Shown here piece by piece: positions 3,077 through 26,310 of a DNA stretch of 32,518 bases. The notes under the pieces were generated by a model, which worked only from the letters and a program-made list of their open reading frames with translations, was not told where the DNA came from and made no database searches. The number at the start of each line of letters is the position of its first letter. Within the stretch, counting starts at the first letter, position 1. Source of the DNA: a virus; the IMG/VR virus record IMGVR_UViG_3300030328_002624, positions 19,514-52,031 of that record. One strand, given 5' to 3'. A program made the position numbers and the translations under genes.

Positions 3077-3092
3077 ATTTATCCTTATGGTT

Positions 3093-3118: not shown

Positions 3119-3132
3119 TTTTATTAACCTAC

Positions 3133-4599
3133 TTATGCTGTAAAGTTTAGCACAGTGTGTGTTTCAGGAAGTGAAATCTCAAGACCTGCTTCTGTAAGAA
3201 CCATGTCTTTTCTTCCGTCTGTTGCATTACCTTGAACATTAGTCATAATCTGGGTGTCACGAGACTGCCCATTTGCTGCTAATGGTCTATAAGCAATGTT
3301 ATTTAGGTCTATAGCGATAGCCATATCATTCCAAGGACCTCTTAATAGAGGCTCTGCAATGAAATTAAGATTACCATATAATGTAGATACTCTAGTCACA
3401 TTATGACCAAAAGAACCTTTAACATTTTGGATATCCATTCCACTACCTGCCGCACTACTACCTGCTCCGAGATTTGACATAGTATTTCCTAAGAAACTAC
3501 TTCCACCTAGTTTATTCAACCAAGTTAAAACGCTTCTTGAAGCTAATACTAGTTTCTCTCCACTATTGCCCTTTTCAGGTGCAAATACTTCTTCCATTGA
3601 CTCAACGAAATGGTCATAGGTTGAAGATGATTTTGAGAACATACGCACTTGACCGTAAGCTTCGGTGTATGGTAAAATACCCCAAGTTTTACGTGATGGT
3701 GCATATCCAGCTGAAAATGTAGCATCGTCTGACGAGCCTACTCCAAATAACATAGCGTGTTCAATATCCATCTTATGTTCCATAAGTTTTTCTTTGTATA
3801 CACGCATGTATTCGTTAGCATCTCCTCTATAACGAGTAGCTAGTGATGTTCCTGAGAACATTGGTACTGCTGTTTTGAAGATTTGAGTATATCCTTCAGA
3901 ACTGTAGATTTCATCTCTCCAGCCTTTAGGGTCATCAGTTCCTTCAGCCCAGTTTGTACCTACAACTTGCCCTACAGCATCCACTACGAATTTAAGCTTA
4001 GACCCATTTGCAATAGTTCCACCTTCTGAAGGTACTTGACCTTTCTTAGTAGCTGCTTGTCCAGCAGTTCCTGTAGGTTTGTACATTGCTTTTAGGAATG
4101 TAGCTGCTATTGTAGCTTTGTTCGTTCCTAAAGTTGGGGCTGCACTTATTCTGTAGTATGCAGTAACATTAAAACCGTTAGTTGTATTGATAGCCCAATT
4201 AGAACCATCGACGGAATAAATTGCGTCAATTGCTATAACTTGCCCTTCCAATAAGAACTGTGGTTGTGAGCCTGCTGCTTCTCTACCGTATTTATCATAA
4301 CCGCAGTCTACTTCAAATGAAGCTGGTAATGCCCAGGCTGCACTTGAATATGCTGCTGTAACTTTTTCCGCTATTACGTCAAAGTTTCTACGTTGCCATT
4401 GATGTCTTTTTTCTAAAAATTTAAAAACAGGGTCATCTGTTGGTTTCTTAGCGACTTTTGACAAATAAGAGAAAAAAGGTGATTGTTCGGGTGCTAATTC
4501 GGCAATTCTCTCGCCGAAATTAAAGATTCTTCTTGAATCATTAATGGACACACCCTGTGGGCTTACGCCCGTGAGTTGACTTTGTATGTCTGTAGCCAT
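3133..4599 (-). CDS. Major capsid protein (SU10-like)
   Basis: 488 residues with an excellent AAGGAG site. It is the main shell protein. The N-terminus (RRIFNFGERIAELAPEQSPF) followed by PVFKFLEKRHQWQRRNF, the middle MDIEHAMLFGVGS, and the C-terminal sequence ending KDMVLTEAGLEISLPETHTV resemble the SU10-type (HK97-fold) capsid family; the E-loop and A-domain cannot be placed by eye. It follows a coiled-coil scaffold gene and precedes connectors, the standard order. A hairpin after the stop may protect the message. Main uncertainty is the exact capsid subfamily. Confidence 0.82.
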   Translation of the reverse strand: MATDIQSQLTGVSPQGVSINDSRRIFNFGERIAELAPEQSPFFSYLSKVAKKPTDDPVFKFLEKRHQWQRRNFDVIAEKVTAAYSSAAWALPASFEVDCGYDKYGREAAGSQPQFLLEGQVIAIDAIYSVDGSNWAINTTNGFNVTAYYRISAAPTLGTNKATIAATFLKAMYKPTGTAGQAATKKGQVPSEGGTIANGSKLKFVVDAVGQVVGTNWAEGTDDPKGWRDEIYSSEGYTQIFKTAVPMFSGTSLATRYRGDANEYMRVYKEKLMEHKMDIEHAMLFGVGSSDDATFSAGYAPSRKTWGILPYTEAYGQVRMFSKSSSTYDHFVESMEEVFAPEKGNSGEKLVLASRSVLTWLNKLGGSSFLGNTMSNLGAGSSAAGSGMDIQNVKGSFGHNVTRVSTLYGNLNFIAEPLLRGPWNDMAIAIDLNNIAYRPLAANGQSRDTQIMTNVQGNATDGRKDMVLTEAGLEISLPETHTVLNFTA

Positions 4600-10696: not shown

Positions 10697-10909
10697 TTAA
10701 TTCCAATCTTCATCAACTTCCATCTTCAATTTCATCGTTTCCTGAACAAAAATGACCTCAAGATTAGCTAACATGAATTGCTTCAATATTGCTATATCAG
10801 GGTCTTTTGGGTCAATTGGAATAGCAATCCATTCTTCCTTTTTCGAATCCCACATTTCAAAAATTTCATCAGCTTTAAATCCTCTAATCATATCTTTCGG
10901 AAGTTTCAT
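10697..10909 (-). CDS. Hypothetical small protein
   Basis: 70 residues starting MKLPKDMIRGFKADEIFEMW and ending KLKMEVDEDWN. The WDSKKEEWIAIPIDPKDPD segment suggests a short beta-hairpin before a helix. No cysteine or membrane segment. No clear ribosome binding site is visible upstream, which lowers confidence. It lies between the leftward promoter and the structured RNA block. The gap between its start and that block holds only AT-rich sequence. Function unknown. Confidence 0.45.
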   Translation of the reverse strand: MKLPKDMIRGFKADEIFEMWDSKKEEWIAIPIDPKDPDIAILKQFMLANLEVIFVQETMKLKMEVDEDWN

Positions 10910-10977
10910 ATATTAAAGTAAAGCCAATATTTGAAAAATACAACTAGAATGTGTGCACGTGATATATATGTATCCTA

Positions 10978-11377
10978 CCCCATACGGATATTCGTCGCTC
11001 GGACTAATTTTCGTTGAAAATTCGTCGTTCGAGCAACGCTCCAGGCATGCTGCCCCATGCACAACGGTGTTGAGCACGGGCATGCCTGTCGCTTCGCATC
11101 CACTACGGAGAGACACTCCGTAGTGAAGCGTTGCTCTTCCTCGCTGTGTGTCAACCTCCGATTAACGTCGGTAACACACAGACGCAAAACACGAAAGCCG
11201 AGGCTTGAGCACGCTCAACCCTGTCTTGCTCACGCTACGGCGTTGCCTTGACCGCTTGAGGAACAAAGGACCGAGCAAGACAGCGTCTTTCTTTTCAACT
11301 CATCGGTGTTCTTCCCTTCGGTCATCACACGTCTTATATTTTTTTAGTCCTCGCTCCTCACATATATCCGTATGGGG
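10978..11377 (+). ncRNA. Structured domain 1 (about 400 nt)
   Basis: Closed by CCCCATACGGATAT (10978-10991) pairing with 11364-11377, 14 perfect base pairs, backed by GGACT (11001-11005) with AGTCC (11346-11350). A three-way junction follows: GAGCAACGCT (11031-11040) with 11127-11136 encloses CAGGCATGC/GCATGCCTG (11042-11050, 11080-11088) and CACTACGGAG/CTCCGTAGTG (11101-11110, 11116-11125). Further helices: TGTGTGT/ACACACA (11145-11151, 11174-11180) and CTGTCTTGCTC/GAGCAAGACAG (11221-11231, 11273-11283). Open frames here are interrupted and lack ribosome binding sites, so it is read as non-coding. The strand is not determined by the domain itself. Confidence 0.6.
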
Positions 11378-11418
11378 GGACCCTTACCAAAAACCTTTAT
11401 ATTAATACCTTGCATCAT

Positions 11419-11507
11419 ACTGACTGCAAGTGTTCACATGCGATAAGCCCCAATCGCTATGGCGATTGCGATATCGCATTGTGTTCACACTTGACAAAGG
11501 AGTCAGT
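11419..11507 (+). promoter_or_regulatory. Long leader hairpin abutting a start codon
   Basis: Three stacked helices: ACTGACT (11419-11425) with AGTCAGT (11501-11507), CAAGTGT (11427-11433) with ACACTTG (11487-11493), and TGCGATA with TATCGCA. Their apex is a CCC/U hairpin. The AAAGGAG site (11496-11502) lies in the bulge and the 3' strand, and the last paired base precedes the ATG at 11508, so folding should restrict ribosome access. Confidence 0.55.
11439..11478 (+). promoter_or_regulatory. CCC/U hairpin, copy 1
   Basis: Outer helix TGCGATA/TATCGCA, internal loop AGCCC against CGA, inner helix CAATCGC/GCGATTG (11451-11457, 11462-11468), loop TATG. It differs from the majority copies in the upper two pairs, with both sides changed. 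It sits at the tip of the leader hairpin of a 42-codon frame. Confidence 0.65.
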
Positions 11508-11636
11508 ATGTTGCAACTATTTCGCCTTTTGATGAAAACGCCGTTTAGTTACTGGAAAGCAATTCTTGCTTGTCCAGATAACGAACCGTTGCATTTTCAT
11601 CATGACGGCTGTCCTTGCTGTTGGAGGAAATCATGA
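11508..11636 (+). CDS. Possible 42-residue Cys/His protein
   Basis: Frame starting MLQLFRLLMKTPFSYWKAIL and ending FHHDGCPCCWRKS. A canonical AAAGGAG lies five bases before the ATG and a terminator 48 bases after the stop. The C-terminal HFHHDGCPCCW cluster could bind a metal ion. The region is GC-richer than the early genes and its bases also form nested hairpins, so it may be a chance frame inside a structured RNA. The ideal ribosome binding site is the main argument for translation. Confidence 0.45.
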   Translation: MLQLFRLLMKTPFSYWKAILACPDNEPLHFHHDGCPCCWRKS

Positions 11637-11684
11637 GATTACCTCCAAGCAAAGTCATCAACGTGTTTTGACACGTTAATGAAA

Positions 11685-11722
11685 GAAATCCCCTACTATT
11701 CGTAGAGGATTTCTTTTTTTTT
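11685..11722 (+). terminator. Intrinsic terminator
   Basis: GAAATCC-C-CTAC (11685-11696), loop TATTC, GTAG-A-GGATTTC (11702-11713), then nine T (11714-11722). An 11-bp stem with one C/A mismatch followed by a pure T-run is a classic rho-independent terminator on the plus strand. Confidence 0.8.
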
Positions 11723-11865
11723 GCTAAAGGTTTTTGTCGCTAGATTTCTGGCTAGTGCCAAGAAAAGAACCTTCTTGTCACTATCCTTCTATCTGCTCTT
11801 CCTGTTTCGTCATCCTTACTCTTCCACTCTGCATACCGATACGCAACTTTTCTCAACGCACAGCC

Positions 11866-12028
11866 AGCCGTTCAAACGTTTTATCTCCCAGGGACTCCAG
11901 ACAAACGGCGAATAAACACTCCGTCAATTCCCCAATCGCTGTGGCGATAGGTATTGACGGATATTCGCCCGTTTGTCATTCCGTCCAACTGGGAGATTTT
12001 TCTATGGAAAATCAAACGTTTGACGGCT
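11866..12028 (+). promoter_or_regulatory. Leader hairpin that buries RBS and start codon
   Basis: Nested helices, outside in: 11866-11881 with 12014-12028 (one bulge), ATCTCCCAG (11883-11891) with CTGGGAGAT (11989-11997), GACAAACGGCGAATA (11900-11914) with 11962-11977 (one bulge), and CCGTCAAT with ATTGACGG. The GGGAG site (11991-11995) is fully paired and the ATG at 12004 sits in an internal loop. If folded, translation of the frame at 12004 should be off. Confidence 0.6.
11921..11960 (+). promoter_or_regulatory. CCC/U hairpin, copy 2
   Basis: Outer helix CCGTCAAT/ATTGACGG (11921-11928, 11953-11960), CCC on the 5' side, inner helix CAATCGC/GCGATAG (11933-11939, 11944-11950) with one A/A mismatch, loop TGTG. 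It forms the tip of the long leader hairpin before the 87-codon frame. Confidence 0.6.
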
Positions 12029-12267
12029 GCACTTTCATCGTTTTCTCTGGCGAGAAAACAGATGACGGCAAGGCTGTTATTGCGTTGAGAACCCGTCACG
12101 CCAACAGAGTTGGCTACGGGGCAGTTGCGTATCTCAAGTCTAAAGACTCTGTGACTCAAGTAGCAAGCTACTTGCAGTCAAGAGGTCTTGACTTGTATGC
12201 AAGAGGTCAGAGTAAGTCTGGCAACTCGCTACGCTTCGGCATCCTCAACATGAAAACCAAGGCATAA
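12004..12267 (+). CDS. Possible 87-residue protein in a structured RNA
   Basis: Starts MENQTFDGCTFIVFSGEKTD and ends RFGILNMKTKA. GGGAG lies eight bases before the ATG. The amino-acid make-up looks like a small alpha/beta protein (VIALRTRHANRVGYGAVAYL, then VTQVASYLQSRGLDLYARGQ), but no family is recognised. The same bases form perfect hairpins: 12040-12059 (loop TGGC), 12100-12114, 12157-12174 and 12176-12193. Composition is unlike the AT-rich early genes. Either a foreign gene with strong secondary structure or a non-coding RNA with a chance frame. A short terminator region follows. Confidence 0.5.
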   Translation: MENQTFDGCTFIVFSGEKTDDGKAVIALRTRHANRVGYGAVAYLKSKDSVTQVASYLQSRGLDLYARGQSKSGNSLRFGILNMKTKA

Positions 12268-12282
12268 ATGCCTAGGTTTTCG

Positions 12283-12368
12283 AAGAGCAGAAATGGATAG
12301 TGCCCCCTCACGTCTTCATCAAGTGAAAAAGAACGACTCGTCGTTCGGGGGGAAGGCTCTTTTTTTTT
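12283..12368 (+). terminator. Branched terminator-like structure
   Basis: AAGAGC (12283-12288) pairs with GCTCTT (12356-12361). Inside, CCCCC (about 12303-12307) can pair with GGGGGG (12347-12352), with hairpins CTCAC/GTGA and AACGA-CTCG-TCGTT. Nine T (12360-12368) follow. It probably ends a plus-strand transcript. The stem is longer and more branched than usual, so strength is uncertain. Confidence 0.5.
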
Positions 12369-12447
12369 GGCACTAGCATTTTTTTCTAATGTAGACAAAT
12401 CAAAGTAATGATTTGTCCGTCTTTCTTTTTCAGAAATCTAGCGACTC

Positions 12448-12510
12448 TTGCATTGTATTTTTGCAGGTTTTTGGACGGGTCCCACGGATACTGTTACCAA
12501 AAAAATGCAA
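12448..12510 (+). ncRNA. Structured domain 4 (63 nt)
   Basis: TTGCATT (12448-12454) and TTTTTGG (12468-12474) together pair with the unbroken right arm CCAAAAAAATGCAA (12497-12510), leaving a 13-base bulge on the left. The loop carries GGGTCC (12477-12482), complementary to GGACCC in the junction strand between domains 1 and 2. It is the smallest of the five adjoining domains. Confidence 0.45.
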
Positions 12511-12560
12511 CGGGGAAACTACCAAAAAACATATTGTTTGTATGACAGGATAAATTAGAC

Positions 12561-12645
12561 TCAACTAGTTTTCGGAACCTGATGACCTAGGGCTCCCCAA
12601 TCTCTCCGAGATTTGTTCGCTTTTTGAGTTCCGAAAACCAGTTGA
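12561..12645 (+). promoter_or_regulatory. CCC/U hairpin, copy 3, on an 18-bp stem
   Basis: TCAACTAGTTTTCGGAAC (12561-12578) pairs with 12628-12645 with a single G-U. The large loop holds CCCCAATCTC, loop TCC, and GAGATTTG (12595-12615), the consensus with one extra T. It is the first helix of domain 5, the same 5' position the element takes in domains 2 and 3. Confidence 0.65.
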
Positions 12646-13265
12646 TAGCGGTAAGTATGGTATGTTGAAAAGATTTGCAGGGGTTACTAGCGTAACCTCT
12701 GCTCAAAATTGGAATGAATGGCGAAAGTCCCAATACAATACCCAGGGGAAGCGTTCTGGGCATTCCATTAGTAGTATATATGACCTATTACCATTGACGC
12801 GCAATAACAGATAGGATTAACATGGGCTGTTGATAGGTCATATATATGTAAAGAATTTTTGTAAAGAATTTTAAGTTATTAATATGCAGTTAATACCTTA
12901 AAATGGTTTTAAACATTGTGAAAGAGGCTAGATAAGCCCTCTACAATGAGTTGTATAGTCCGATAGGACCTTGGGCGTATCAAATGATACGGATAAGCCA
13001 GCCAATAATGCTGGAATACAATGTTGTTTGAGTAACAAAGATAGGAGTTTATCCTACTTATATGCATAGTCAAAATGGTCAATTACTTGGAGCCATTCTA
13101 TGCCATATTTATCTGCTCAATGAATAGGTAGTCAGAGATGACATATCATGCCTATTTGAGAGTGCTCTGGTAAGAGTATAAATATGTAAGTAAACGTGTC
13201 TTCAGAGAAGATGACGTAAAATCTAACAAACATGAGAGTGATACCAAAACCTCTCTAAAACCACT

Positions 13266-13303
13266 TATATGAGGGAACTTACGTTCCCTTATATATTTTT
13301 TTT
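13266..13303 (+). terminator. Strong intrinsic terminator of domain 5
   Basis: TATATGAGGGAAC (13266-13278), loop TTAC, GTTCCCTTATATA (13283-13295), eight T (13296-13303). Thirteen base pairs with one G-U and a clean T-run. This fixes the plus strand and a likely 3' end for the ornate RNA near 13303. Confidence 0.9.
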
Positions 13304-13388
13304 GACAATATGTTTTTTTTGTAGTTTCAGATACATTATTGTCATATAACTTGTGTTACTTGTCTGTAAAATAACCTAAAACTTGTTC

Positions 13389-13432
13389 GGAATAACCTCC
13401 CCAATCTCTCCGAGATTGTTTCAGCAATTTCC
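13389..13432 (+). promoter_or_regulatory. CCC/U hairpin, copy 4
   Basis: CCCCAATCTCTCCGAGATTG at 13399-13418, one of four identical copies: seven-pair stem, TCC loop. The outer pairing is weaker than in other copies (GGAAT 13389-13393 with ATTTCC 13427-13432). It is the only copy followed by another structured RNA rather than directly by a ribosome binding site. Confidence 0.65.
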
Positions 13433-13449
13433 TTTTAGAGCAAAGACTT

Positions 13450-13563
13450 AAGAGAGATAATGTCATACGAGAATTCGTAGGTGTAATAGAGCATAGAATT
13501 ATGTTCAATAATGTTTCAACATTAAATATTGCTTCCCAAGTGACAAGGCCAATTATCTCTCTT
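13450..13563 (+). ncRNA. Three-armed structured leader
   Basis: AAGAGAGATAAT (13450-13461) pairs perfectly with 13552-13563, then GTCA (13462-13465) with TGAC (13541-13544). Three arms follow: TACGA-GAAT-TCGTA, GAGCATA-GAAT-TATGTTC (two arms sharing a GAAT loop) and AATAATGTT/AACATTAAATATT. The cloverleaf-like fold has no tRNA T- or anticodon-loop features. It lies in the leader of the 45-codon gene at 13619. Confidence 0.55.
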
Positions 13564-13571
13564 TAGAATTT

Positions 13572-13603
13572 TAAATCCCCAATCCTAACGGATTGTTTAT
13601 TTA
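13572..13603 (+). promoter_or_regulatory. CCC/U hairpin, copy 5
   Basis: The clearest copy. Outer helix TAAAT/ATTTA, symmetric internal loop CCC (13577-13579) against TTT (13596-13598), inner helix CAATCC/GGATTG, UAAC tetraloop. Both sides of the sixth inner pair differ from the TC/GA of copy 4, and the stem still closes. AAGGAGG follows two bases after the outer helix. Confidence 0.75.
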
Positions 13604-13618
13604 TAAGGAGGAATCATC

Positions 13619-13756
13619 ATGAGGTGTCCAATTATATATAAGGACGATTTAGTCAAGTATGTGCATGGATTAAATAAATCCGTGCCTATATCAAATATAC
13701 GTAAAATGTCCAAAAAACAATTATATGCTATTTGGTATAATCAGAATAATGTATAA
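13619..13756 (+). CDS. Small basic protein
   Basis: 45 residues starting MRCPIIYKDDLVKYVHGLNK and ending QLYAIWYNQNNV. The AAGGAGG at 13605-13611 is the strongest ribosome binding site in the window and decides the start. The IRKMSKKQLYAIWY segment resembles the short helical 'ls..qL.aIy.n' module seen in many small phage proteins. It is the first gene of the early region. Function unknown. Confidence 0.65.
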   Translation: MRCPIIYKDDLVKYVHGLNKSVPISNIRKMSKKQLYAIWYNQNNV

Positions 13757-13816
13757 TTATGTAGTATTTTTAATATAATATTAATATATTACATATAACA
13801 AAAAGGAGAGTAAATA

Positions 13817-14167
13817 ATGAAATATAATATATATATAGCATTACTATTTGTATTTTTAATTATTTATACAGGTTGTATAGTTGCAAATAAACCTGTAAAA
13901 ATAGCGGAAAATACTACGTCGGCTTATACACCTGAAAAGGTTTTAGAGGCTGAAATACCAGAAACTCCTGAATTATCAGCAGAAGAAAAGGCTACAGTTC
14001 AGGAAGATATTAAGTTGGATAGACAAGAAATTGAACAAGAACTTGATATTGAAAAAAAGTCAGTTGAACAGATGAGAGATGACGTTCATGAAATATTAGA
14101 TGAAATAATTGAGGCTGATAGCACAGTTCAAGTAACATTTAATATGACTTACACTATGCAAGATTAG
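13817..14167 (+). CDS. Membrane-anchored (lipoprotein-like) protein
   Basis: 116 residues after an AAGGAG site. MKYNIYIALLFVFLIIYTGC is an N-terminal hydrophobic helix ending in TGC, a possible lipobox although Tyr at -3 is unusual. The rest is acidic and helical (EKATVQEDIKLDRQEIEQEL, then VEQMRDDVHEILDEIIE) and would form a periplasmic or external coiled coil. Early, membrane-anchored coiled-coil phage proteins often act in superinfection exclusion or lysis control. Here that is only a suggestion. Confidence 0.65.
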   Translation: MKYNIYIALLFVFLIIYTGCIVANKPVKIAENTTSAYTPEKVLEAEIPETPELSAEEKATVQEDIKLDRQEIEQELDIEKKSVEQMRDDVHEILDEIIEADSTVQVTFNMTYTMQD

Positions 14168-14171
14168 TGAT

Positions 14172-14236
14172 TTGGCTAGAGTATAGTTCCTATAATAATA
14201 GGCACTATCCATGCTCTGGAATTATGTTCTAGCCAA
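14172..14236 (+). ncRNA. Structured intergenic hairpin
   Basis: TTGGCTAGA (14172-14180) pairs with TCTAGCCAA (14228-14236), with ATAGT/ACTAT and CCTAT/ATAGG nested inside. It follows the stop of the lipoprotein-like gene by four bases. No T-run follows, so it is not an ordinary terminator. Its 3' strand CCAA is also part of CCAATTA, which can pair with TAATTGG at the next ribosome binding site. Confidence 0.5.
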
Positions 14237-14244
14237 TTATGCAC

Positions 14245-14279
14245 TAACCTCCCCAATCTCTCCGAGATTGTTAACGTTA
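14245..14279 (+). promoter_or_regulatory. CCC/U hairpin, copy 6
   Basis: The identical 20-base core at 14251-14270. Outer pairing TAAC (14245-14248) with GTTA (14276-14279), extended by CCAATTA (14233-14239) with TAATTGG (14282-14288). The extended helix covers the first two bases of the GGAG site (14287-14290) of the gene at 14300. Confidence 0.7.
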
Positions 14280-14299
14280 ATTAATTGGAGCAAATAAAA

Positions 14300-14572
14300 A
14301 TGAAAAAAGAAATGATAGAATTAAAAGTCAAAATGAGATTTCTTATGTTTTTAATAAAGCAGAGAAAGAAATCTCGTCAAATTGATTCAATACGTAAAAT
14401 GAGTTTTAAAGAATTGAATGTATATTTGGAAAAAACTCATGCTTTGTTAAAGTATAGAATACCTGAAATAAATAATTTGTATTCGTATGCTTATAACAGA
14501 AAGATTGCAATGAAGAGAAATTATCTTAATATGAAAGATATTGAGCCTTCATTCTATCGCACTTGGAGATAG
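14300..14572 (+). CDS. Basic helical protein
   Basis: 90 residues starting MKKEMIELKVKMRFLMFLIK. GGAG nine bases before this ATG decides the start over an in-frame TTG at 14285 that overlaps the site itself. Strongly basic (KQRKKSRQIDSIRKMSFKEL) and helical throughout, ending EPSFYRTWR. Nucleic-acid binding is plausible from charge alone. No family recognised. Confidence 0.55.
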   Translation: MKKEMIELKVKMRFLMFLIKQRKKSRQIDSIRKMSFKELNVYLEKTHALLKYRIPEINNLYSYAYNRKIAMKRNYLNMKDIEPSFYRTWR

Positions 14573-14586
14573 TAATAGATTAAGAT

Positions 14587-14650
14587 ATGTTGCTCCAAGA
14601 TGGGCAATCAACGGATAACTTATGTAATCTGTTGGTTGCTCTTGCAACAT
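14587..14650 (+). ncRNA. Structured intergenic hairpin
   Basis: ATGTTGC (14587-14593) pairs with GCAACAT (14644-14650). Inside, GGGCAATCAACGGAT (from 14602) pairs imperfectly with ATCTGTTGGTTGCTC (to 14641), mainly with G-U exchanges. It fills the gap before the AAGGAAA site of the gene at 14670. Confidence 0.5.
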
Positions 14651-14669
14651 TAATAAAAAGGAAAATAAC

Positions 14670-14900
14670 ATGAATAATAAAGAATATAAAAAGTTGATAG
14701 AATTTATAGATGATAAACTTGAAGACGCACAATCAAATGCAGTATGGTTTTGGTTGCAAGGAATATACAAAGTAGAACCATATATAGGAGAAGATGGAAC
14801 TATTGATGAAATAACTATGCAAGGCGAGTTTAATGAAGAGATAGATATTGTTAAAGAATGGATTAAAGAATGGAAGGAAGCAAATAATGATAATAATTGA
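14670..14900 (+). CDS. Small acidic Trp-rich protein
   Basis: 76 residues starting MNNKEYKKLIEFIDDKLEDA, with AAGGAAA upstream. Two helical ends (VKEWIKEWKEANND at the C-terminus) flank a Trp-containing middle (NAVWFWLQGIYKVEPYIGED). It overlaps the next gene by 14 bases, starting the tightly coupled run 14670-16308. Function unknown. Confidence 0.6.
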   Translation: MNNKEYKKLIEFIDDKLEDAQSNAVWFWLQGIYKVEPYIGEDGTIDEITMQGEFNEEIDIVKEWIKEWKEANNDNN

Positions 14901-15111
14901 CGACACAAACACTTGCAAAAAGTGTGGTGCGTATTATGTAGATAATAACTATTGTGTCAATGGACATTACATAGACGCACTTGAAAAAGCAATTATACTA
15001 TTAAATGATAATAAAGATATCACAGATGAATGCGATGGTATAATTGTTTCCAATGAACCTGAAATAGCAGAAACACTATTTGATATAGTAAAGGAGATGA
15101 AAAATGATTGA
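14887..15111 (+). CDS. Small protein with zinc-finger-like motif
   Basis: 74 residues from ATG 14887, chosen because GGAAGGA lies about seven bases upstream; a longer in-frame start at 14848 has none. TCKKCGAYYVDNNYCVNGHY (from residue 8) gives C-x2-C-x9-C-x3-H, a likely metal site. The rest is acidic and helical. It overlaps both neighbours. Possible nucleic-acid or protein adaptor; unproven. Confidence 0.55.
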   Translation: MIIIDDTNTCKKCGAYYVDNNYCVNGHYIDALEKAIILLNDNKDITDECDGIIVSNEPEIAETLFDIVKEMKND

Positions 15112-15340
15112 AATGCCGTCAAATAAAGAACTATGTGAACAATTTAACTTAACAAAAGCAGAGTTAAGGCTTACTAGGTTAAACAAAGGTTATCATATTA
15201 AAATAATACAAGGGAGTAAAAAGAATATTGAAAAATATCCTGATATTCCATTAGGTAGTAATACGCCTATAGAAGTATTAGATGATAATAAAAAACCTGT
15301 GTATTTAGGCTTGCCTTTGGTAAAGAAAGGCGAGCTATGA
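15104..15340 (+). CDS. Hypothetical small protein
   Basis: 78 residues starting MIEMPSNKELCEQFNLTKAE with AAAGGAGAT upstream. The first 30 residues resemble a short helix-turn-helix-like unit (NKELCEQFNLTKAELRLTRL). A beta-rich C-terminus follows (PIEVLDDNKKPVYLGLPLVK). Overlaps the previous gene by eight bases and the next by an ATGA. A small DNA-binding regulator is possible but not shown. Confidence 0.55.
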   Translation: MIEMPSNKELCEQFNLTKAELRLTRLNKGYHIKIIQGSKKNIEKYPDIPLGSNTPIEVLDDNKKPVYLGLPLVKKGEL

Positions 15341-15594
15341 ATTACATGGATAAGATATTAGAAAAGATAAAGATTAGTAAATACAATAAAATGCATGATT
15401 CTTCAGTAAATAATACAAATATGGAGCAAGTTAAAACATTTATAAATGTAAGAACTGAAGAAATGGATAGAGAAGATATTTTAGAAGAACTAGCATACTA
15501 TGTATATATGTCATGGGAAAATAATGATAAGCAAATGAAAGATGACCTAGAGTATATAGATGCTATAAATAAAGAAAAGAGCAATAATGAGTAA
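15337..15594 (+). CDS. Hypothetical acidic protein
   Basis: 85 residues starting MNYMDKILEKIKISKYNKMH. The start overlaps the preceding stop (ATGA), a translational-coupling arrangement. Mostly helical and acidic (TEEMDREDILEELAYYVYMS). No motif recognised. It overlaps the next gene by eight bases. Confidence 0.55.
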   Translation: MNYMDKILEKIKISKYNKMHDSSVNNTNMEQVKTFINVRTEEMDREDILEELAYYVYMSWENNDKQMKDDLEYIDAINKEKSNNE

Positions 15595-16081
15595 AAAGAA
15601 AAAAGACAGTATACCTGACGAATTAAAAGAAAGTTATTGGGATAACCCCGTTTATCCAGGCTCTAAAAGTCCAGATAGATTGTTAAAAAATAATCCTGAT
15701 AAAAAGGGTTATATGCGTTCTAATTATCAAGAGGGAGTTGGAGAGAAATTCAATGAGCCTCTTGATAAGTATTGGAACACTGTTAAAAACAGAGATAGTA
15801 AACATAAAGCAAATAACAATAGAAATTTTGCTTTTAGCAATACAGAAAGAGCAAGAAATAGATTAGATGCAAGAAAGGCTGGATTAGAACAGGAATATCC
15901 AGCAGGTTGCAATCTTACTAAAAAAGATATATTTGAAGAATACCCAGATGCGACAATAATATGTTCTAGTTGTAATTTTATGCTTAAAGGCGATACACCT
16001 ACAATATATATTGATTGCATACAATGTGAAAATAATGAATATGAAATTAAAACTATGCAAAAGCATGAAAGGAATAAGTAA
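15587..16081 (+). CDS. Protein with C-terminal zinc ribbon
   Basis: 164 residues. The N-terminal two thirds are basic, polar and probably disordered (SYWDNPVYPGSKSPDRLLKN, then TVKNRDSKHKANNNRNFAFS). The C-terminus holds CSSCNFMLKG...YIDCIQCEN, a C-x2-C...C-x2-C zinc ribbon. Such a layout suits a nucleic-acid-binding or RNA-polymerase-interacting early protein. This is inference from motif only. Confidence 0.6.
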   Translation: MSKKKKDSIPDELKESYWDNPVYPGSKSPDRLLKNNPDKKGYMRSNYQEGVGEKFNEPLDKYWNTVKNRDSKHKANNNRNFAFSNTERARNRLDARKAGLEQEYPAGCNLTKKDIFEEYPDATIICSSCNFMLKGDTPTIYIDCIQCENNEYEIKTMQKHERNK

Positions 16082-16308
16082 TGGGTTATATTATTGAAAG
16101 AAATGAAGATAGTCCTTCTGGTGCTAAAGTAATACATTTTGAAATATTAATGAAAGATGATAATGGTGGAGAACAACCTCGCTATTATAATATAGAATTA
16201 ATGACAGATGTATTCATGAGAGCAATGGAAGAACTTCAAGAAGATGATGAAGCAATAACTGAAGCTTGGAATGAAAAGCAACAGAAATACGCAGAAGATA
16301 ATATGTAA
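16081..16308 (+). CDS. Hypothetical acidic protein
   Basis: 75 residues starting MGYIIERNEDSPSGAKVIHF. AGGAA lies six bases upstream and the start touches the preceding stop. Two beta strands (VIHFEILMKDDNGGEQPRYY) are followed by an acidic helical tail. It ends the run of coupled genes that began at 14670. Function unknown. Confidence 0.55.
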   Translation: MGYIIERNEDSPSGAKVIHFEILMKDDNGGEQPRYYNIELMTDVFMRAMEELQEDDEAITEAWNEKQQKYAEDNM

Positions 16309-16323
16309 TTATAATATTATTTA

Positions 16324-16384
16324 GCCTTTCCATAACAAAAAGCGAATGGGGAATCTGGTAAGAGATTATCGGACATGGAAAGGC
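16324..16384 (+). ncRNA. Intergenic hairpin with an alternative fold
   Basis: GCCTTTCCAT (16324-16333) pairs perfectly with ATGGAAAGGC (16375-16384). The same GGAAAG (16377-16382) also pairs with CTTTCC (16387-16392) around a GCAT loop, and the two folds exclude each other. The large loop has GGGGAA (16348-16353), which could pair with TTCCCC just before copy 7 of the CCC/U hairpin. Confidence 0.5.
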
Positions 16385-16391
16385 ATCTTTC

Positions 16392-16410
16392 CCCCAATCC
16401 TAACGGATTG
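16392..16410 (+). promoter_or_regulatory. CCC/U hairpin, copy 7
   Basis: CCC, then CAATCC (16395-16400), UAAC tetraloop, GGATTG (16405-16410), as in copy 5. It lies between a switch-like hairpin and the GGAG site (16431-16434) of the gene at 16444. GACA (16372-16375) could pair with TGTC (16413-16416) as the outer helix. Confidence 0.65.
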
Positions 16411-16443
16411 TCGTGTCAATTAAAAAAAAAGGAGAATAGAATA

Positions 16444-16638
16444 ATGCATGATACAGTAGCAATAAGTAAAGAAGAGTTTAGAGCATTTGAATGTGTTCGT
16501 CAAGATGGACAGCATAATATGTATAGTCCACATGCTAGAGCAGAAGCAGGTTTAGATAAAGATACCTGGATATTCATAATGAAAAACTATGACGAATTAG
16601 TAGAACGTTATGGTGATTTAAACAATGGAGATAACTAA
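16444..16638 (+). CDS. Small phage protein, DUF5049-like outline
   Basis: 64 residues starting MHDTVAISKEEFRAFECVRQ. GGAG nine bases upstream fixes this ATG rather than one at 16375 in the hairpin. The pattern ISKEEFRAFECVRQDGQHNMY, then a helical end IFIMKNYDELVERY, resembles small phage proteins of the DUF5049 type. Similarity is judged by eye. Function of that group is unknown. Confidence 0.55.
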   Translation: MHDTVAISKEEFRAFECVRQDGQHNMYSPHARAEAGLDKDTWIFIMKNYDELVERYGDLNNGDN

Positions 16639-17090
16639 TGGGTTTAGACCAATATGCAGGAACAATGCGTGAAGAAACATATGAGTGGGAATCACCAGAT
16701 GGTGAAAAGAAAGTAGATAAATGGCAGCAAGCAGGTCCATTTCAGTGGCGTAAACATGCTAGATTACAAGAGTTCATGAATACTCTATATATGGAGAAAA
16801 ATGAGATAAAATCTGGCAAATGGGAATCAACAACTGACGATTCTGGTAAAACATGGACCAATCCTATATCCTGGACTGATATGGAATTAAATTGGGAAGA
16901 TATAGATAGATTAGAAAAGGCTGTAAAAGACGGATATCATGATTACTTTTGTGATGGAGGATTCTTCTGGGGGCATCAGTTCCAGGAAGAATCTGTTGCA
17001 GAAGAAAAGGAAAAAGATATGGAATTCGTAGAATTTGCCAGAGAAGCACTAGAAGATGGAGAAAAAGTATTCTATTCTTGTAGTTGGTAG
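16638..17090 (+). CDS. Conserved phage protein of MGLDQYA type
   Basis: 150 residues beginning MGLDQYAGTMREE, with WRKHARLQEFMNTLY near residue 37, a central CDGGFFWGHQF and the ending VFYSCSW. This set of blocks belongs to a widespread phage protein family with no established biochemical role, sometimes mislabelled in databases. The start touches the previous stop and has a GGAG site. Length is normal for the family. Confidence 0.7.
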   Translation: MGLDQYAGTMREETYEWESPDGEKKVDKWQQAGPFQWRKHARLQEFMNTLYMEKNEIKSGKWESTTDDSGKTWTNPISWTDMELNWEDIDRLEKAVKDGYHDYFCDGGFFWGHQFQEESVAEEKEKDMEFVEFAREALEDGEKVFYSCSW

Positions 17091-17129
17091 TAATTGAGTA
17101 TGTAAGACGACTATAGTTGCATTACTAAA

Positions 17130-17220
17130 TCAGAATAGAGGTAATTTAGTTAGGTTCCTAAGTAGCTACTAACGATACTAACAGCATAGGAGTATCCCAT
17201 ACAGATTACCTCAGTTCTGA
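17130..17220 (+). ncRNA. Structured intergenic RNA, first of three
   Basis: TCAGAA-ta-GAGGTAAT (17130-17145) pairs with ATTACCTC-ag-TTCTGA (17205-17220): fourteen pairs around a 2x2 internal loop. The inside folds further (GTTAG/CTAAC, CCTA/TAGG). With the next two structures it fills a 370-base gap without any gene between 17091 and 17460. Confidence 0.55.
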
Positions 17221-17235
17221 ATAATAAATTAAATA

Positions 17236-17295
17236 TTGATTACCTAGCCCGAGTAGTAATCGGCTACCCTATCCGTAGGTTCATGAGGTAATCAA
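17236..17295 (+). ncRNA. Structured intergenic RNA, second of three
   Basis: TTGATTACCT (17236-17245) pairs perfectly with AGGTAATCAA (17286-17295), enclosing two hairpins, AGCC/GGCT and CCTA-TCCG-TAGG, as a three-way junction. Its GAGGTAAT arm also matches ATTACCTC of the first structure, so the two can exchange partners. Confidence 0.55.
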
Positions 17296-17297
17296 AA

Positions 17298-17440
17298 TTA
17301 TGGTGTTTGTATTACTGAATATTTTCCGATATAAAAGTAAACTAACAACGTAACAATAACTGGTCCAGAAAGGTATTAGGATAAATGCCGATTTAGATGG
17401 AATATGTGAGTTACAAGCTAGTATGATACAAGCACCATAA
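17298..17440 (+). ncRNA. Structured intergenic RNA, third of three
   Basis: TTATGGTG (17298-17305) pairs perfectly with CACCATAA (17433-17440), then TTGTAT (17307-17312) with ATACAA (17426-17431). About 110 bases in between are less clearly folded. The AAAGGAG site of the gene at 17461 follows directly. Confidence 0.5.
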
Positions 17441-17460
17441 TAAATTAAAAGGAGAATAAA

Positions 17461-17841
17461 ATGGGAAGATATTACAATGGAGATATAGAAGGAAAGTTCT
17501 GGTTTGCAGTTCAATCATCATGTGATGGTGAATACTTTGGAATGGAACAAGAAGAACATACACATATACCTTACTATTCTGATGATTTAGAATTAGCAGA
17601 AGAAGGTATAAAACAATGTAAAAAAGAGTTACGTGGATACTTAACGAAGATGGATAAATTCTTTAATTCAGTTGATTCATATAATGATACAACATTAGCA
17701 GAAGCATTGGATTTAGAAGGTGAAAAATACGATGCAAAAAGAAGACATCTAATGGTTTGGTATGCTAGATTAAGGCTTGGAAAGCAAATAGCATCTTGTA
17801 TTAAGGATACAGGTTCATGCTGGTATGAAGCAGAATTATAA
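17461..17841 (+). CDS. Conserved phage protein of MGRYYNGDIEGKFWF type
   Basis: 126 residues starting MGRYYNGDIEGKFWFAVQSS, followed by CDGEYFGMEQ and a helical C-terminal half (YDAKRRHLMVWYARLRLGKQ). The N-terminal block is one I recognise from marine phage hypothetical proteins. No function is established. Excellent AAAGGAG site after a long structured leader. Confidence 0.65.
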   Translation: MGRYYNGDIEGKFWFAVQSSCDGEYFGMEQEEHTHIPYYSDDLELAEEGIKQCKKELRGYLTKMDKFFNSVDSYNDTTLAEALDLEGEKYDAKRRHLMVWYARLRLGKQIASCIKDTGSCWYEAEL

Positions 17842-17863
17842 GGTTTCCTACTGAAAAGAAAAT

Positions 17864-17930
17864 AGGGCGTATATCATATTATTCATTTACCCGTCTAATA
17901 TCAGTTAGTCAAAGATACGCCCTGTTTTTT
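17864..17930 (+). terminator. Terminator-like hairpin with folded loop
   Basis: AGGGCGTAT (17864-17872) pairs with ATACGCCCT (17915-17923), extended inside by ATATTA/TAATAT, and is followed by GTTTTTT (17924-17930). The long loop is unusual for an intrinsic terminator, but the GC stem and T-run fit one. It separates the gene ending at 17841 from that at 17965. Confidence 0.6.
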
Positions 17931-17964
17931 AAATATTATATAAACGATAAAAAGGAGAAATACA

Positions 17965-18231
17965 ATGGATGAAAGTAAAGAAATAGGTGGAAAGATAAAC
18001 AGTAGAACATATGAAAAATTATTATTAAATAATCCTAATATAAAACTACTTGAAAAATGTTTAGTCCCTGGATGTAAAGACGCTGAACAAGTAAAAGGAT
18101 TATGTCCTAAACATTACCAACATGCAAGAAGATTGGTAAACAAAGATGAAACTACATGGGTTAAACTGTATAAAAAAGGAAAAGCAAAGAGAAAGAAGTC
18201 AGCAACTACAGATTGGTTTCTTGAAGGTTAG
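17965..18231 (+). CDS. Small zinc-binding protein
   Basis: 88 residues, AAAGGAG upstream. CLVPGCKDAEQVKGLCPKHY (residues 32-51) gives C-x4-C-x9-C-x2-H, a treble-clef-like site found in small phage proteins related to HNH-type folds but here without catalytic residues. The tail is very basic (YKKGKAKRKKSATTDWFLEG). Probably binds nucleic acid. Confidence 0.6.
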   Translation: MDESKEIGGKINSRTYEKLLLNNPNIKLLEKCLVPGCKDAEQVKGLCPKHYQHARRLVNKDETTWVKLYKKGKAKRKKSATTDWFLEG

Positions 18232-18233
18232 CA

Positions 18234-18269
18234 TTAACCCCCCCAATCTCTCCGAGATTGTTTGGTTAA
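18234..18269 (+). promoter_or_regulatory. CCC/U hairpin, copy 8
   Basis: Outer helix TTAACC/GGTTAA (18234-18239, 18264-18269), C-tract against TTT, then the identical core 18241-18260. AAAGGAG (18276-18282) follows. It begins three bases after the preceding stop codon, so no separate promoter fits between the stop and the element. Confidence 0.75.
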
Positions 18270-18287
18270 ATTAATAAAGGAGATTAA

Positions 18288-18413
18288 ATGAGTAAATCAG
18301 AAAAAGCGTTTGAAATACAAGAGAAGATAGGAAAGTTAATAGAAAAGCTAGATAAACTAGGTTTTGAATTTATGTTTTACAATCATCAGTCTTCTATAAG
18401 GAGAAAAAGATGA
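18288..18413 (+). CDS. Small helical protein
   Basis: 41 residues starting MSKSEKAFEIQEKIGKLIEK and ending NHQSSIRRKR. AAAGGAG five bases before the ATG. The stop overlaps the next start as ATGA. Amphipathic helix with a basic tail. It is the first gene after a CCC/U hairpin and probably couples to the zinc-ribbon gene behind it. Confidence 0.6.
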   Translation: MSKSEKAFEIQEKIGKLIEKLDKLGFEFMFYNHQSSIRRKR

Positions 18414-18793
18414 AAATAAAAGCTAATGTAGAAACAGATTTAGAATATGCAGATAGAGTTTCTAAAGAAGATAAAACCTGGAGTATAGAACACGAAGGTC
18501 CATTAAATAAAAACAATATTGTCTTTAAAACAGGATTAGTAAACAAGCCTAAAGATATGGATGATATGTGGGTATGTGATTATTGTGGTTCAGAAGAAGT
18601 ATCTCAAGGTGCATGGGTTGACCTTAATACAGAAATTTTGGTAGACTTTATGGAAAATAGTAGTTTTTGGTGTGATACTTGTGAAGAAGAAACAGAACCA
18701 ATGACATACTTTGATTTCAAAGAAAAGATTGCTGAAGAATGCGGAGGCAATAAAGATGAATATGATAAAATAATGGATGGGAGTAGAATGTAA
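18410..18793 (+). CDS. Zinc-ribbon protein
   Basis: 127 residues starting MKIKANVETDLEYADRVSKE after AAGGAG. A zinc ribbon is formed by WVCDYCGSEEV (about 59-69) and WCDTCEEETE (about 87-96), separated by the conserved-looking GAWVDLNTE. An acidic C-terminus follows. Resembles small phage proteins of unknown function with paired C-x2-C sites. ATGA overlap upstream and TAATG overlap downstream. Confidence 0.6.
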   Translation: MKIKANVETDLEYADRVSKEDKTWSIEHEGPLNKNNIVFKTGLVNKPKDMDDMWVCDYCGSEEVSQGAWVDLNTEILVDFMENSSFWCDTCEEETEPMTYFDFKEKIAEECGGNKDEYDKIMDGSRM

Positions 18794-19026
18794 TGAGAAA
18801 AAACGTAGTAAATATAAAGTTAGATTACAAACCTAAAATAAGAAAAATAGATGCAGAAATATGTTTAAGTATATATTATTCTTTTGATGAAGAAATAGGA
18901 TATACTCTAGATACAGATAGCATAAGAAAAGAGTTTGAAGAACAGTTGGATGAGATAGAAGACGATATTTCAAACTTAAATCACGAAAGAGATGAACATT
19001 TAAGAACTAAACATGCAGAGGGTTAA
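18793..19026 (+). CDS. Hypothetical acidic coiled-coil protein
   Basis: 77 residues starting MRKNVVNIKLDYKPKIRKID. The N-terminal half is beta-prone and the C-terminal half a charged coiled coil (EEQLDEIEDDISNLNHERDE). The start overlaps the previous stop by one base. Function unknown. Confidence 0.55.
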   Translation: MRKNVVNIKLDYKPKIRKIDAEICLSIYYSFDEEIGYTLDTDSIRKEFEEQLDEIEDDISNLNHERDEHLRTKHAEG

Positions 19027-19188
19027 ATGTTAAATAAAGTAACAGATAAAGAATGTAAAGAGGCTATTCATTATTTTTGGGTAATGAATTTATTAGACAA
19101 TGGTATGAAATCTGATGAAAGATACTATTGTGAAATTCTGCTAAAAAGAGTAGCAAATACATTAAAAATAAAGCTAGAGGAGGAATAG
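19027..19188 (+). CDS. Small hypothetical protein
   Basis: 53 residues starting MLNKVTDKECKEAIHYFWVM and ending LKIKLEEE. The ATG directly follows the previous stop codon and AGAGGG lies just before that stop. Helical with two cysteines. Its own end encodes the GAGGAGG site of the next gene. Real by spacing and coupling, function unknown. Confidence 0.5.
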   Translation: MLNKVTDKECKEAIHYFWVMNLLDNGMKSDERYYCEILLKRVANTLKIKLEEE

Positions 19189-19191
19189 AAC

Positions 19192-19260
19192 GTGATAGAA
19201 TTTTTAATTAAATTTATGACGTATCTATTCACTCTAATAGGAATAAAGGAAGAAGAATGA
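19192..19260 (+). CDS. 22-residue membrane miniprotein
   Basis: GTG start six bases after a GAGGAGG site. MIEFLIKFMTYLFTLIGIKE, ending EE, is one hydrophobic helix with charged ends. The stop overlaps the next ATG (ATGA). Strong initiation signal and perfect packing argue that it is translated. It would sit in the inner membrane; target unknown. Confidence 0.5.
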   Translation: MIEFLIKFMTYLFTLIGIKEEE

Positions 19261-19490
19261 GTTTAAAGAAAGAATACGAAACTAATTTTGACAAGATATA
19301 TAATGTCTTGGAAGAATGGTATACTCCAGAACAGATAGATAAGATTTGGGAATATCTTAAGGAGTTTGATAAAAAGACTAACATGGTTTCTTATTGCGAA
19401 GAATGTGGTGATGAAATAGGCGGCTTCTTCCTTTGCGATGAATGTGAAGATGAAATGTTCCCTTCATTTTCTGAAAAGGAGGAAAAATGA
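19257..19490 (+). CDS. Small zinc-ribbon protein
   Basis: 77 residues starting MSLKKEYETNFDKIYNVLEE. A helical N-terminus precedes YCEECGDEIGGFFLCDECED, a compact C-x2-C-x9-C-x2-C zinc ribbon at about residues 47-62. Acidic elsewhere. ATGA overlaps on both sides couple it to its neighbours. A protein adaptor role is possible. Confidence 0.6.
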   Translation: MSLKKEYETNFDKIYNVLEEWYTPEQIDKIWEYLKEFDKKTNMVSYCEECGDEIGGFFLCDECEDEMFPSFSEKEEK

Positions 19491-19702
19491 GTTATAGTTA
19501 CCATGAAGATGATTTTAAAGCAATAATTGCAAGAAATAATCATCCAGAAATTGGAACAAAGAGATATAGAGAAATGGAAAAAGAATGCCTGAAAATGAAT
19601 GGAAGAGGATGGTGGTTGCTATCTGGAGTTTCATTAAGAAATACATTGGACGACCCTTGGATTAAAAGGTTTATTAAAGGAGAATCTGATGAGCAAGAAT
19701 AA
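19487..19702 (+). CDS. Hypothetical small protein
   Basis: 71 residues starting MSYSYHEDDFKAIIARNNHP with AAGGAGG upstream. NGRGWWLLSGVSLRNTLDDP is a notable aromatic block. The end overlaps the next gene by 14 bases and encodes its ribosome binding site (AAAGGAG). Function unknown. Confidence 0.55.
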   Translation: MSYSYHEDDFKAIIARNNHPEIGTKRYREMEKECLKMNGRGWWLLSGVSLRNTLDDPWIKRFIKGESDEQE

Positions 19703-19862
19703 GCAAATAACAATACTAGAATCTATGCTAGAAAATATAGAAAAAGATATAAATAAGACTTTAAAATTAAAATCTACTTATTTCAACGACGCTATAGCTG
19801 TTGAATTAATAGGATTTTATGCAAAGACAATGGAGAAATATTTAAACCTAATTGATGAATAA
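19689..19862 (+). CDS. Small helical protein
   Basis: 57 residues starting MSKNKQITILESMLENIEKD and ending AKTMEKYLNLIDE. AAAGGAG lies six bases upstream inside the preceding gene. All-helical and charged. It closes the operon that began at 18288. Confidence 0.55.
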   Translation: MSKNKQITILESMLENIEKDINKTLKLKSTYFNDAIAVELIGFYAKTMEKYLNLIDE

Positions 19863-19873
19863 AATCAATTGGG

Positions 19874-19910
19874 TTTAACTCCCCAATCTCTCCGAGATTG
19901 TTCGTTTGAA
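19874..19910 (+). promoter_or_regulatory. CCC/U hairpin, copy 9
   Basis: TTTAAC (19874-19879) pairs with GTTTGAA (19904-19910) with one G-U and one bulge. The internal loop is CCC against TTC and the core 19881-19900 is identical to copies 4, 6 and 8. AAAGGAG (19923-19929) of the next gene follows. Confidence 0.7.
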
Positions 19911-19936
19911 TCAATTAATAATAAAGGAGCGTTAAA

Positions 19937-20665
19937 ATGAATAATGCACTAAAAATAAAGATAGATAGAGCTGCATATTTTATATATGAAGCAATGAAAA
20001 ATAGATATAGCTTTGATGGTCAGCACAATGATATGAATAGACTAGGAAGAATGTATACCATGTATAAAGCATTAGGTAAACATATTAGTGAATATGGAGT
20101 ATCATTTAAAAGTCCTAAAAGGATAATGGAAATGTTCGTAGCTTTGGAAAACAGTTCAAAGCATAGAATAGTGACAAGACTATACAGAGATAATCTGGTT
20201 AAGATAGACTGTAATGCAGAAGTTGAATGGGACTATACTGAAATAGAAACATATGACACTGAAATGCATGTTGAAAATGTTAATTCCATAGACCTGGAAC
20301 ATGACTATTTAGAGGTAGAAACAGATGATATATCTGATGAAGCTGATGAAGAGGTCAGAAATATAGGTTGGAGCATACATAGCATAGATGGAAGAATATC
20401 ATGGGATAGCATGGATTCTGCATTAGTTAGACCTTCAGATGATGGTATTGTAATGTATTTGGAACAAAATCCAGATTATGAACAATGGGAATCTGAAGAT
20501 ATAGACCAATTTGTTGGAAACTTTATTAGTAATAATGAAATAAAGGAAGAAGACGATAATGAGAATGCTGTAAATATGTTTAAGGACATATTGAAAGAAT
20601 ATCAGAAAGAAGAGTTAGATGCTTTGGTCGAAAAAAGTAAGGAGTATAAAGATGGAAAAGAATAG
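19937..20665 (+). CDS. Hypothetical acidic protein
   Basis: 242 residues starting MNNALKIKIDRAAYFIYEAM. The N-terminal 80 residues are helical and basic. From about 100 the protein is very acidic (DYLEVETDDISDEADEEVRN; later KEEDDNENAVNMFKDILKEY). No catalytic motif is visible. The acidic C-terminal half could mimic DNA, as some anti-restriction proteins do, but this is speculative. First gene after copy 9 of the CCC/U hairpin. Confidence 0.6.
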   Translation: MNNALKIKIDRAAYFIYEAMKNRYSFDGQHNDMNRLGRMYTMYKALGKHISEYGVSFKSPKRIMEMFVALENSSKHRIVTRLYRDNLVKIDCNAEVEWDYTEIETYDTEMHVENVNSIDLEHDYLEVETDDISDEADEEVRNIGWSIHSIDGRISWDSMDSALVRPSDDGIVMYLEQNPDYEQWESEDIDQFVGNFISNNEIKEEDDNENAVNMFKDILKEYQKEELDALVEKSKEYKDGKE

Positions 20666-24421: not shown

Positions 24422-24754
24422 ATGACACACAAAAATAAAATACGTGGTAACAATCTTGAAAGAGAATGTGTTAATATCGCAAAAGGTGAGGGGCTCTCTG
24501 CAGAGAGAGCCTACGCCTCTAACGGTTTATCACTAGGTAAATCTGAACAAGTAGATTGTGTAGTAGAAGGATATGCGATTCAAGCTAAAAGAAAAAAGAA
24601 AGTCGCACAATGGTTATATCCTAAATACCATGCAGACGATGTAGATGTAGTCGTAACTCGCATGGATAGAAAAGAAGCTTTAGCAATAATACCATATGAT
24701 GAATGGATTAGGTTAATAAAAATAGAAAAGGAAAATTCTAATGAAAATAAGTAG
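24422..24754 (+). CDS. Holliday-junction-resolvase-like nuclease
   Basis: 110 residues. RGNNLERECVNIAKGEGLSA (Glu in the first helix), then SEQVDCVVEGYAIQAKRKKK (Asp, then Q-x-K) is the E...D...(E/Q)xK arrangement of small PD-(D/E)XK resolvases. IIPYDEWIRLI ends the fold. It would cut branched intermediates left by the annealing protein or trim concatemers before packaging. Starts directly at the previous stop. Confidence 0.7.
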   Translation: MTHKNKIRGNNLERECVNIAKGEGLSAERAYASNGLSLGKSEQVDCVVEGYAIQAKRKKKVAQWLYPKYHADDVDVVVTRMDRKEALAIIPYDEWIRLIKIEKENSNENK

Positions 24755-26052: not shown

Positions 26053-26310
26053 ATGAAACCACTAAGAGATGAGATTATTGTAAAGAGAGATGCCAATGAA
26101 GAAAAAACAAAATCTGGTATTATCTTACAAGGCAATGATGATAATATAAAAACGACTGGAACAGTAATAGAAATAGGACCAGAGGTTAAAGAGCTAAAAA
26201 AGAAAGATAGAATTCTTTTTCACTCCCAACAGTATATTGTTCAAATGGTAGAAGGCAAAGAAATGATTTTTATGCCAGAAGGTTCTGTCCTAGCAATATT
26301 GGAGAAATAA
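26053..26310 (+). CDS. GroES-like co-chaperonin
   Basis: 85 residues, slightly short for GroES (about 95). Start MKPLRDEIIVKRDANEEKTK matches the GroES opening. SGIILQGND is the mobile loop whose hydrophobic triplet docks on GroEL. GTVIEIGPEVKELKKKDRIL and the ending EGSVLAILEK complete the beta barrel. It would replace the host co-chaperonin so that GroEL folds the phage capsid, as T4 gp31 does. Strong AAAGGAG site. Confidence 0.85.
   Translation: MKPLRDEIIVKRDANEEKTKSGIILQGNDDNIKTTGTVIEIGPEVKELKKKDRILFHSQQYIVQMVEGKEMIFMPEGSVLAILEK

Follow-up and report, generated by a model that had tools for sequence, protein, structure and literature searches.

A recurrent hairpin in the early region

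The region described here, referred to as the window, is a stretch of 32,518 nucleotides (nt) covering positions 19514-52031 of IMG/VR virus record IMGVR_UViG_3300030328_002624, which is 52,031 bases long. The minus strand to the left encodes terminase, portal, and major head protein, and the plus strand to the right carries the early genes, including one for a DnaB-like helicase/primase. A small predicted hairpin with a CCC bulge on its 5' side, here termed the CCC hairpin, recurs nine times in the plus-strand region. Comparison of this locus with its relatives demonstrates a lineage-specific, multi-copy element with this predicted fold, located at the tips of leader domains and 5' of the ribosome binding sites of early genes.

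A sequence-only reading of this DNA had listed nine copies, all on the plus strand, and each was recovered, as CCCCAATC at 11448, 11930, 12595, 13399, 13577, 14251, 16392, 18241, and 19881. All nine are on the plus strand and none falls within a credible gene; the core occurs neither on both strands nor inside genes. Exact matches to CCCAATC..GATTG number seven in the window, against 0.08 expected. The identical 20-base sequence attributed to four copies, CCCCAATCTCTCCGAGATTG, is indeed common to those at 13399, 14251, 18241, and 19881.

Searching IMG/VR for an exact 20-base sequence and for a degenerate pattern retrieved two further records with several hairpin copies each, G001 (14.9 kb) and G002 (15.5 kb). 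Identity to the window terminase is 84% for G001 and 87% for G002, with most other family members found at approximately 76-80%. Both have seven or more copies, which lie on the transcribed strand at positions mostly matching those of the window; as G001 ends shortly past its last copy, these counts are minima.

The 23 copies in the three phages were divided by position into two classes. Class A (n = 11; the window copies at 11448, 11930, and 12595, five in G001, and three in G002) lies in the leader, mostly atop longer stems, and the three window copies cap long stems, as had been proposed. Class B (n = 12; six in the window, two in G001, and four in G002) has a nearly constant inner hairpin, either CAATCTC-UCC-GAGATTG or CAATCC-U(A/U)AC-GGATTG. 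Of these 12, nine precede a ribosome binding site, with 24-37 nt between the end of the hairpin and the ATG. Among these are the five window copies that had been placed just before early operons (13577, 14251, 16392, 18241, and 19881), each followed by a strong Shine-Dalgarno (SD) sequence. The distance from the CCC to the SD is 29-44 nt and is narrowly spaced, at 33-39 nt in seven of the nine. The features of the region are collected in Table 1.

Table 1. Hairpins, terminator-like sites, and the leader gene of the window.
Feature	Position	Strand	Remarks
Hairpin 0, probable further CCCC-bulge type without CAATC	~11042-11088	+	CCCCATGCA identical in three phages
CCC hairpin 1 (class A)	11437..11480	+	caps stem 11410-11425/11501-11516
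U9 run, terminator-like	11714..11722	+	after 16-base stem 11681-11717; downstream of hairpin 1
CCC hairpin 2 (class A)	11919..11962	+	5' of gene A1
Gene A1, 87 amino acids, leader	12004..12267	+	66-74% identical across three phages
U9 run, terminator-like, weaker stem	12360..12368	+	downstream of hairpin 2 and gene A1
CCC hairpin 3 (class A, local outer helix weak)	12585..12626	+	within 18-base stem 12561-12578/12628-12645
U8 run, terminator-like	13296..13303	+	after 13-base stem 13266-13295; downstream of hairpin 3
CCC hairpin 4 (class B type core)	13390..13430	+	no start codon directly downstream
CCC hairpin 5 (class B)	13569..13606	+	24 nt to ATG at 13619
CCC hairpin 6 (class B)	14239..14282	+	30 nt to ATG at 14300
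CCC hairpin 7 (class B)	16380..16419	+	34 nt to ATG at 16444
CCC hairpin 8 (class B)	18231..18272	+	28 nt to ATG at 18288
CCC hairpin 9 (class B)	19872..19912	+	37 nt to ATG at 19937

Covariation and the constant parts of the element

The outer helix had been described as differing in sequence in nearly every copy while still pairing, and this description stands for class A. When 5' flanks were scored against their own 3' flanks and flanks were then permuted among copies of the same class, none of 50,000 permutations reached the pairing observed for the 11 class A copies. A structural alignment of 22 copies shows changes on both sides in all eight outer pairs and in four of the seven inner pairs, in agreement with the earlier observation that the upper stem varies on both sides, and gives a covariation score of 0.652 compared to 0.146 when shuffled; the alignment register was picked by pairing, so the permutation test, which was allowed the same freedom, is the fairer of the two. 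This alignment was padded, with inserted N and trimming of long stems, because MAFFT misaligned the variable loops. Hairpin 3, whose correspondence across phages was judged by order and neighboring sequence, changes the type of its inner stem from CTCTCC in the window to CTTAC in G001 and CTAAC in G002.

The 5' CCC and the C-G pair that follows it are present in every tabulated copy. The original description of constant CCC and UUU strands thus holds for the CCC but not for the UUU, which is replaced by CGA at 11448 and GTA at 11930; the 3' strand is absent in some copies and up to several bases long in others, and in a number of copies from G001 and G002 the UUU is likewise substituted or missing. 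A CCC bulge, or asymmetric loop, is a more accurate description of the element. The CAATC/GATTG helix, also reported as constant, is exact in seven of the window copies but has an A-A mismatch at 11930 and an extra T at 12595, and it is replaced in some relatives by CATTC/GAATG, CAATATCC, or CAGTATCC. Among the class A copies, CAATC is exchanged for CATTC and CAGTA in G002 and for CAATA in one G001 copy. The inner helix has six to nine pairs, and the loops vary (UCC, UAAC, UUAC, UAUG, and others). In predicted folds of class A, the probability that the CCC is unpaired is 0.96-1.00 for seven of the 11 copies and 0.48-0.86 for the other four.

Inverted repeats selected as DNA would covary too, and the element could in principle be a DNA-level hairpin or an oriented protein site, such as an operator, a primase site, or an origin of single-strand synthesis, for which transcription is irrelevant; a wobble test does not tell selection as DNA from selection as RNA. 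We regard this as improbable, given that all 23 copies are on the transcribed strand, that the first 19.5 kb of the record, with the minus-strand genes left of the window, contains none, and that nine copies stand at narrow spacing 5' of ribosome binding sites. From the strand, the position 5' of start codons, and the one-sided CCC, we infer that folding takes place in RNA rather than in DNA.

A covariance model built from the 22 aligned copies, a search the sequence-only reading had suggested, produced one weak match in 718 kb (L037, E value 0.097, on a contig that had been retrieved by pattern) and no match in another 743 kb, for a total of approximately 1.46 Mb composed mostly of family relatives; this model also misses hairpin 0, which is too divergent. 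A degenerate pattern scan of IMG/VR returned, besides G001 and G002, ten contigs with single sites, which may be approximately at chance level, and a host search across genome contigs found no match. The element is therefore lineage-specific, being restricted, within the sequences searched, to three related phages. At gathering scores, no Rfam 15 family matches the window, and with E values up to 1 none matches window positions 10900-20600 or the leaders of G001 and G002.

The leader region and its terminator-like sites

The leader contains 19-20 long nested helices per phage within approximately 2.6 kb, compared to 1-6 in composition-preserving shuffles. The 3' arm of the stem capped by hairpin 1 contains the start codon of a 42-amino-acid open reading frame (ORF) at 11508, and hairpin 2 caps the stems 11883-11891/11989-11997 and 11900-11908/11969-11977. 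With long helices this dense and a CCC hairpin in each leader module, the bulge might dock with other parts of the leader or with other copies, as seen in ornate phage RNAs; GOLLD and ROOL assemble via kissing loops and A-minor contacts (PMC12286853). Such an RNA-RNA contact has a low probability, as the class B copies are found far from the leader, 5' of ordinary genes. GOLLD and ROOL are likewise large, heavily structured RNAs, several of them from phages (PMC12286853), but the leader described here contains coding modules and the CCC motif and has no Rfam match in the regions searched.

Sites consisting of a stem plus a run of seven to nine U residues follow the leader hairpins. The first four modules of G001 show hairpins (12710, 12980, 13191, and 13564) in alternation with T-runs (12929, 13086, 13347, and 14012); in G002 and the window, the first three hairpins each have one or more of these sites downstream. 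Several module-closing helices extend beyond the U-run, so they can form only after it has been read through. This arrangement recalls antitermination of the type directed by the HK022 put RNAs, which suppress termination by contacting RNA polymerase. The put RNAs are also elements of a phage early leader located 5' of terminators and function without a dedicated protein (PMC9378689); nascent class A hairpins would bind RNA polymerase or recruit a factor, allowing the terminator-like sites to be read through. This explanation is doubtful. The put RNA is approximately 70 nt in length with two adjacent stem-loops (PMC9378689), whereas the elements described here are single bulged hairpins, those of class B being small and many of them lying 5' of start codons; inspection of folds and helix lists revealed no regular second stem-loop beside the class A copies. 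No run of eight T residues occurs on the plus strand of the window past 13320, and the alternation is drawn from three related genomes, of which G001 probably has a duplicated module.

That same T8-free region is where the class B copies lead groups of genes, adjoining other structured intercistronic stretches, which would fit a role in RNA processing or stability, with the hairpin marking or protecting the 5' ends that arise when a long early transcript is cut between mini-operons. The stable stems of class A might obstruct nucleases, but the class B stems are short and a plain stability hairpin would need no invariant CCC, making this role rather unlikely.

Gene A1, located in the leader, is a speculative candidate for a partner of the hairpin, by virtue of shared occurrence only; the searches run detected it in the window, G001, and G002 alone. 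A two-pattern search of IMG/VR found A1 elsewhere in G001 only, and its protein has no match in the phage collection at E values up to 1. Long-range helices at 11751-12417 enclose A1 and its leader, and the 5' leader pairs with the A1 coding region (e.g., 11838-11848 with 12123-12133), with similar pairing in G001 and G002.

Additional features were observed around the hairpins. At 10938-10980, where the divergent early region starts, the sequence TAGAnTG(C/T)G(T/A)G...TATAT is followed by a C-rich stretch and usually by (C/A)GTTGAA; it recurs in approximately 60 fetched loci of the phage family and is probably an early promoter and leader start. The approximately 500 bases at 10946-11440 are GC-rich and heavily structured with conserved patches (75% mean column identity across the three phages), have no Rfam match, and look like a noncoding leader RNA. 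A repeated TACC(A/C)AAAA is found 5' of several CCC hairpins (window 11385, 12495, and 12520; G001 12651, 14349, and 14692; G002 8449 and 9909), in some cases followed approximately 16 bases on by a TAT-rich hexamer, and is possibly a promoter element. A CTGATGA near 12578 was considered as part of a hammerhead ribozyme and rejected by eye, as no GAAA core is present at the expected place. Intercistronic, domain-like stretches closed by helices but without a CCC hairpin occur at 14573-14669, 17091-17460, and 17842-17964, and visual inspection of relatives such as L071 shows similar structured stretches. In contig L065 of another family member, a repeat close to CTTT(T)CTTTATGATTTTATTTTATT precedes several early genes at approximately 2300-3400.

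Small genes in the early region of the window encode an HNH-like protein (17965-18231; E value 2.5e-07), a RusA-like resolvase (24422-24754; E value 2.3e-07), and a GroES-like co-chaperonin (26053-26310; E value 3e-17). An ORF of 1976 amino acids at 26569-32499 on the minus strand has no PHROGs or Pfam match.

A putative RNA element and its proposed shared partner

The suggestion that the hairpin is a selected RNA motif has been strengthened by the two relatives, which share the element in mostly matching places, on the transcribed strand and between genes, with leader stems that differ yet remain complementary. As each relative has at least seven copies whose outer stems are often different but still pair, the hairpin is probably a real and uncatalogued RNA signal.

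The interpretation we favor, to which we assign a probability of roughly 0.42, is that the hairpin works as RNA, is specific to this lineage, and has a single binding partner common to its copies; those of class B would act close to the starts of translation and those of class A on the modules of the leader. A single partner is suggested by the reuse of the hairpin in unrelated contexts, with the CCC and the next C-G pair fixed as the stems change. Most simply, this partner would be one phage or host RNA-binding protein that recognizes the bulge. In class B, the distance to the start codon would place the action of the hairpin at the 5' edge of the ribosome footprint, and translation of each early mini-operon would be controlled or protected; in class A, the leader modules would be marked or stabilized.

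The known cases closest in geometry are the iron-responsive element (IRE) and the translational operator of T4 gp43, the phage DNA polymerase, which binds this hairpin 5' of its own gene. The gp43 operator of T4 and RB69 is likewise a small phage RNA hairpin (16-18 bases), located approximately 40 bases 5' of a start codon and by the ribosome binding site, and its UAAC loop is also found in some of the copies described here (PMC3014915). Unlike that operator, the CCC hairpin is present in many copies 5' of different genes and has a conserved CCC bulge and an unconserved loop; no DNA polymerase gene was recognized in the proteins scanned, which did not include every ORF of a record that may be incomplete. 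The IRE is a eukaryotic element in which only one C is bulged, the upper helix has five pairs, and the loop of six bases is conserved, unlike the three unpaired C residues, the longer inner helix, and the loops of varied sequence and length seen here. By the features tested, the CCC hairpin is neither an IRE nor a put RNA. As in a protein-bound bulged-hairpin regulon, the same hairpin stands 5' of several genes and is kept by covariation across the 23 copies of the three phages, strongly in class A and only marginally in the outer helix of class B.

Several results weigh against the shared-partner interpretation. Class B does not reproduce the strong pairing of the class A outer helices: for its 12 copies, 1,819 of 50,000 permutations reached the observed value (p ~0.036), which is only marginal. 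The invariance of the CCC is partly an artifact of selection, as the copies were collected in part by CCCCAATC, and the predicted openness of the CCC in class B spans 0.06 to 1.00. The G-T versus A-C wobble test detected no G-T excess in the helices, but 16S and 23S ribosomal RNA controls likewise had none, so the test has no power to distinguish RNA from DNA. For the candidate partner A1, the model is poor (mean predicted local distance difference test score of 56.5) and has no fold match. SD openness was compared between 35 starts lacking a hairpin and 12 that have one; at the latter it was on average not below that of a shuffled-upstream control (mean rank 0.65). The SDs are no more buried than with shuffled upstream sequence, leaving simple masking of the SD unsupported. 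The same test makes it very improbable that the C-rich strand pairs with GGAG as a switch sequestering the SD, a possibility favored only by the buried SD in the predicted folds of a few copies (13577 and 18241).

In a more specific form of the shared-partner interpretation, one small phage protein would recognize the CCC hairpins both at the tips of the multi-domain leader RNA and ahead of most early mini-operons; the leader RNA would serve as a sink for this protein and, through its abundance, set the translation of early genes. Such an RNA regulon is possible but still unlikely.

In conclusion, at least 23 copies of the CCC hairpin are present in three related uncultured phages and absent from Rfam, and the leader copies keep their pairing despite changes in sequence. 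Phage early regions have mostly been read for their proteins. The CCC hairpin offers a well-delimited candidate site for binding, of which many natural variants exist, and its study could reveal a new phage RNA-binding protein or a new way in which early genes are coordinated.

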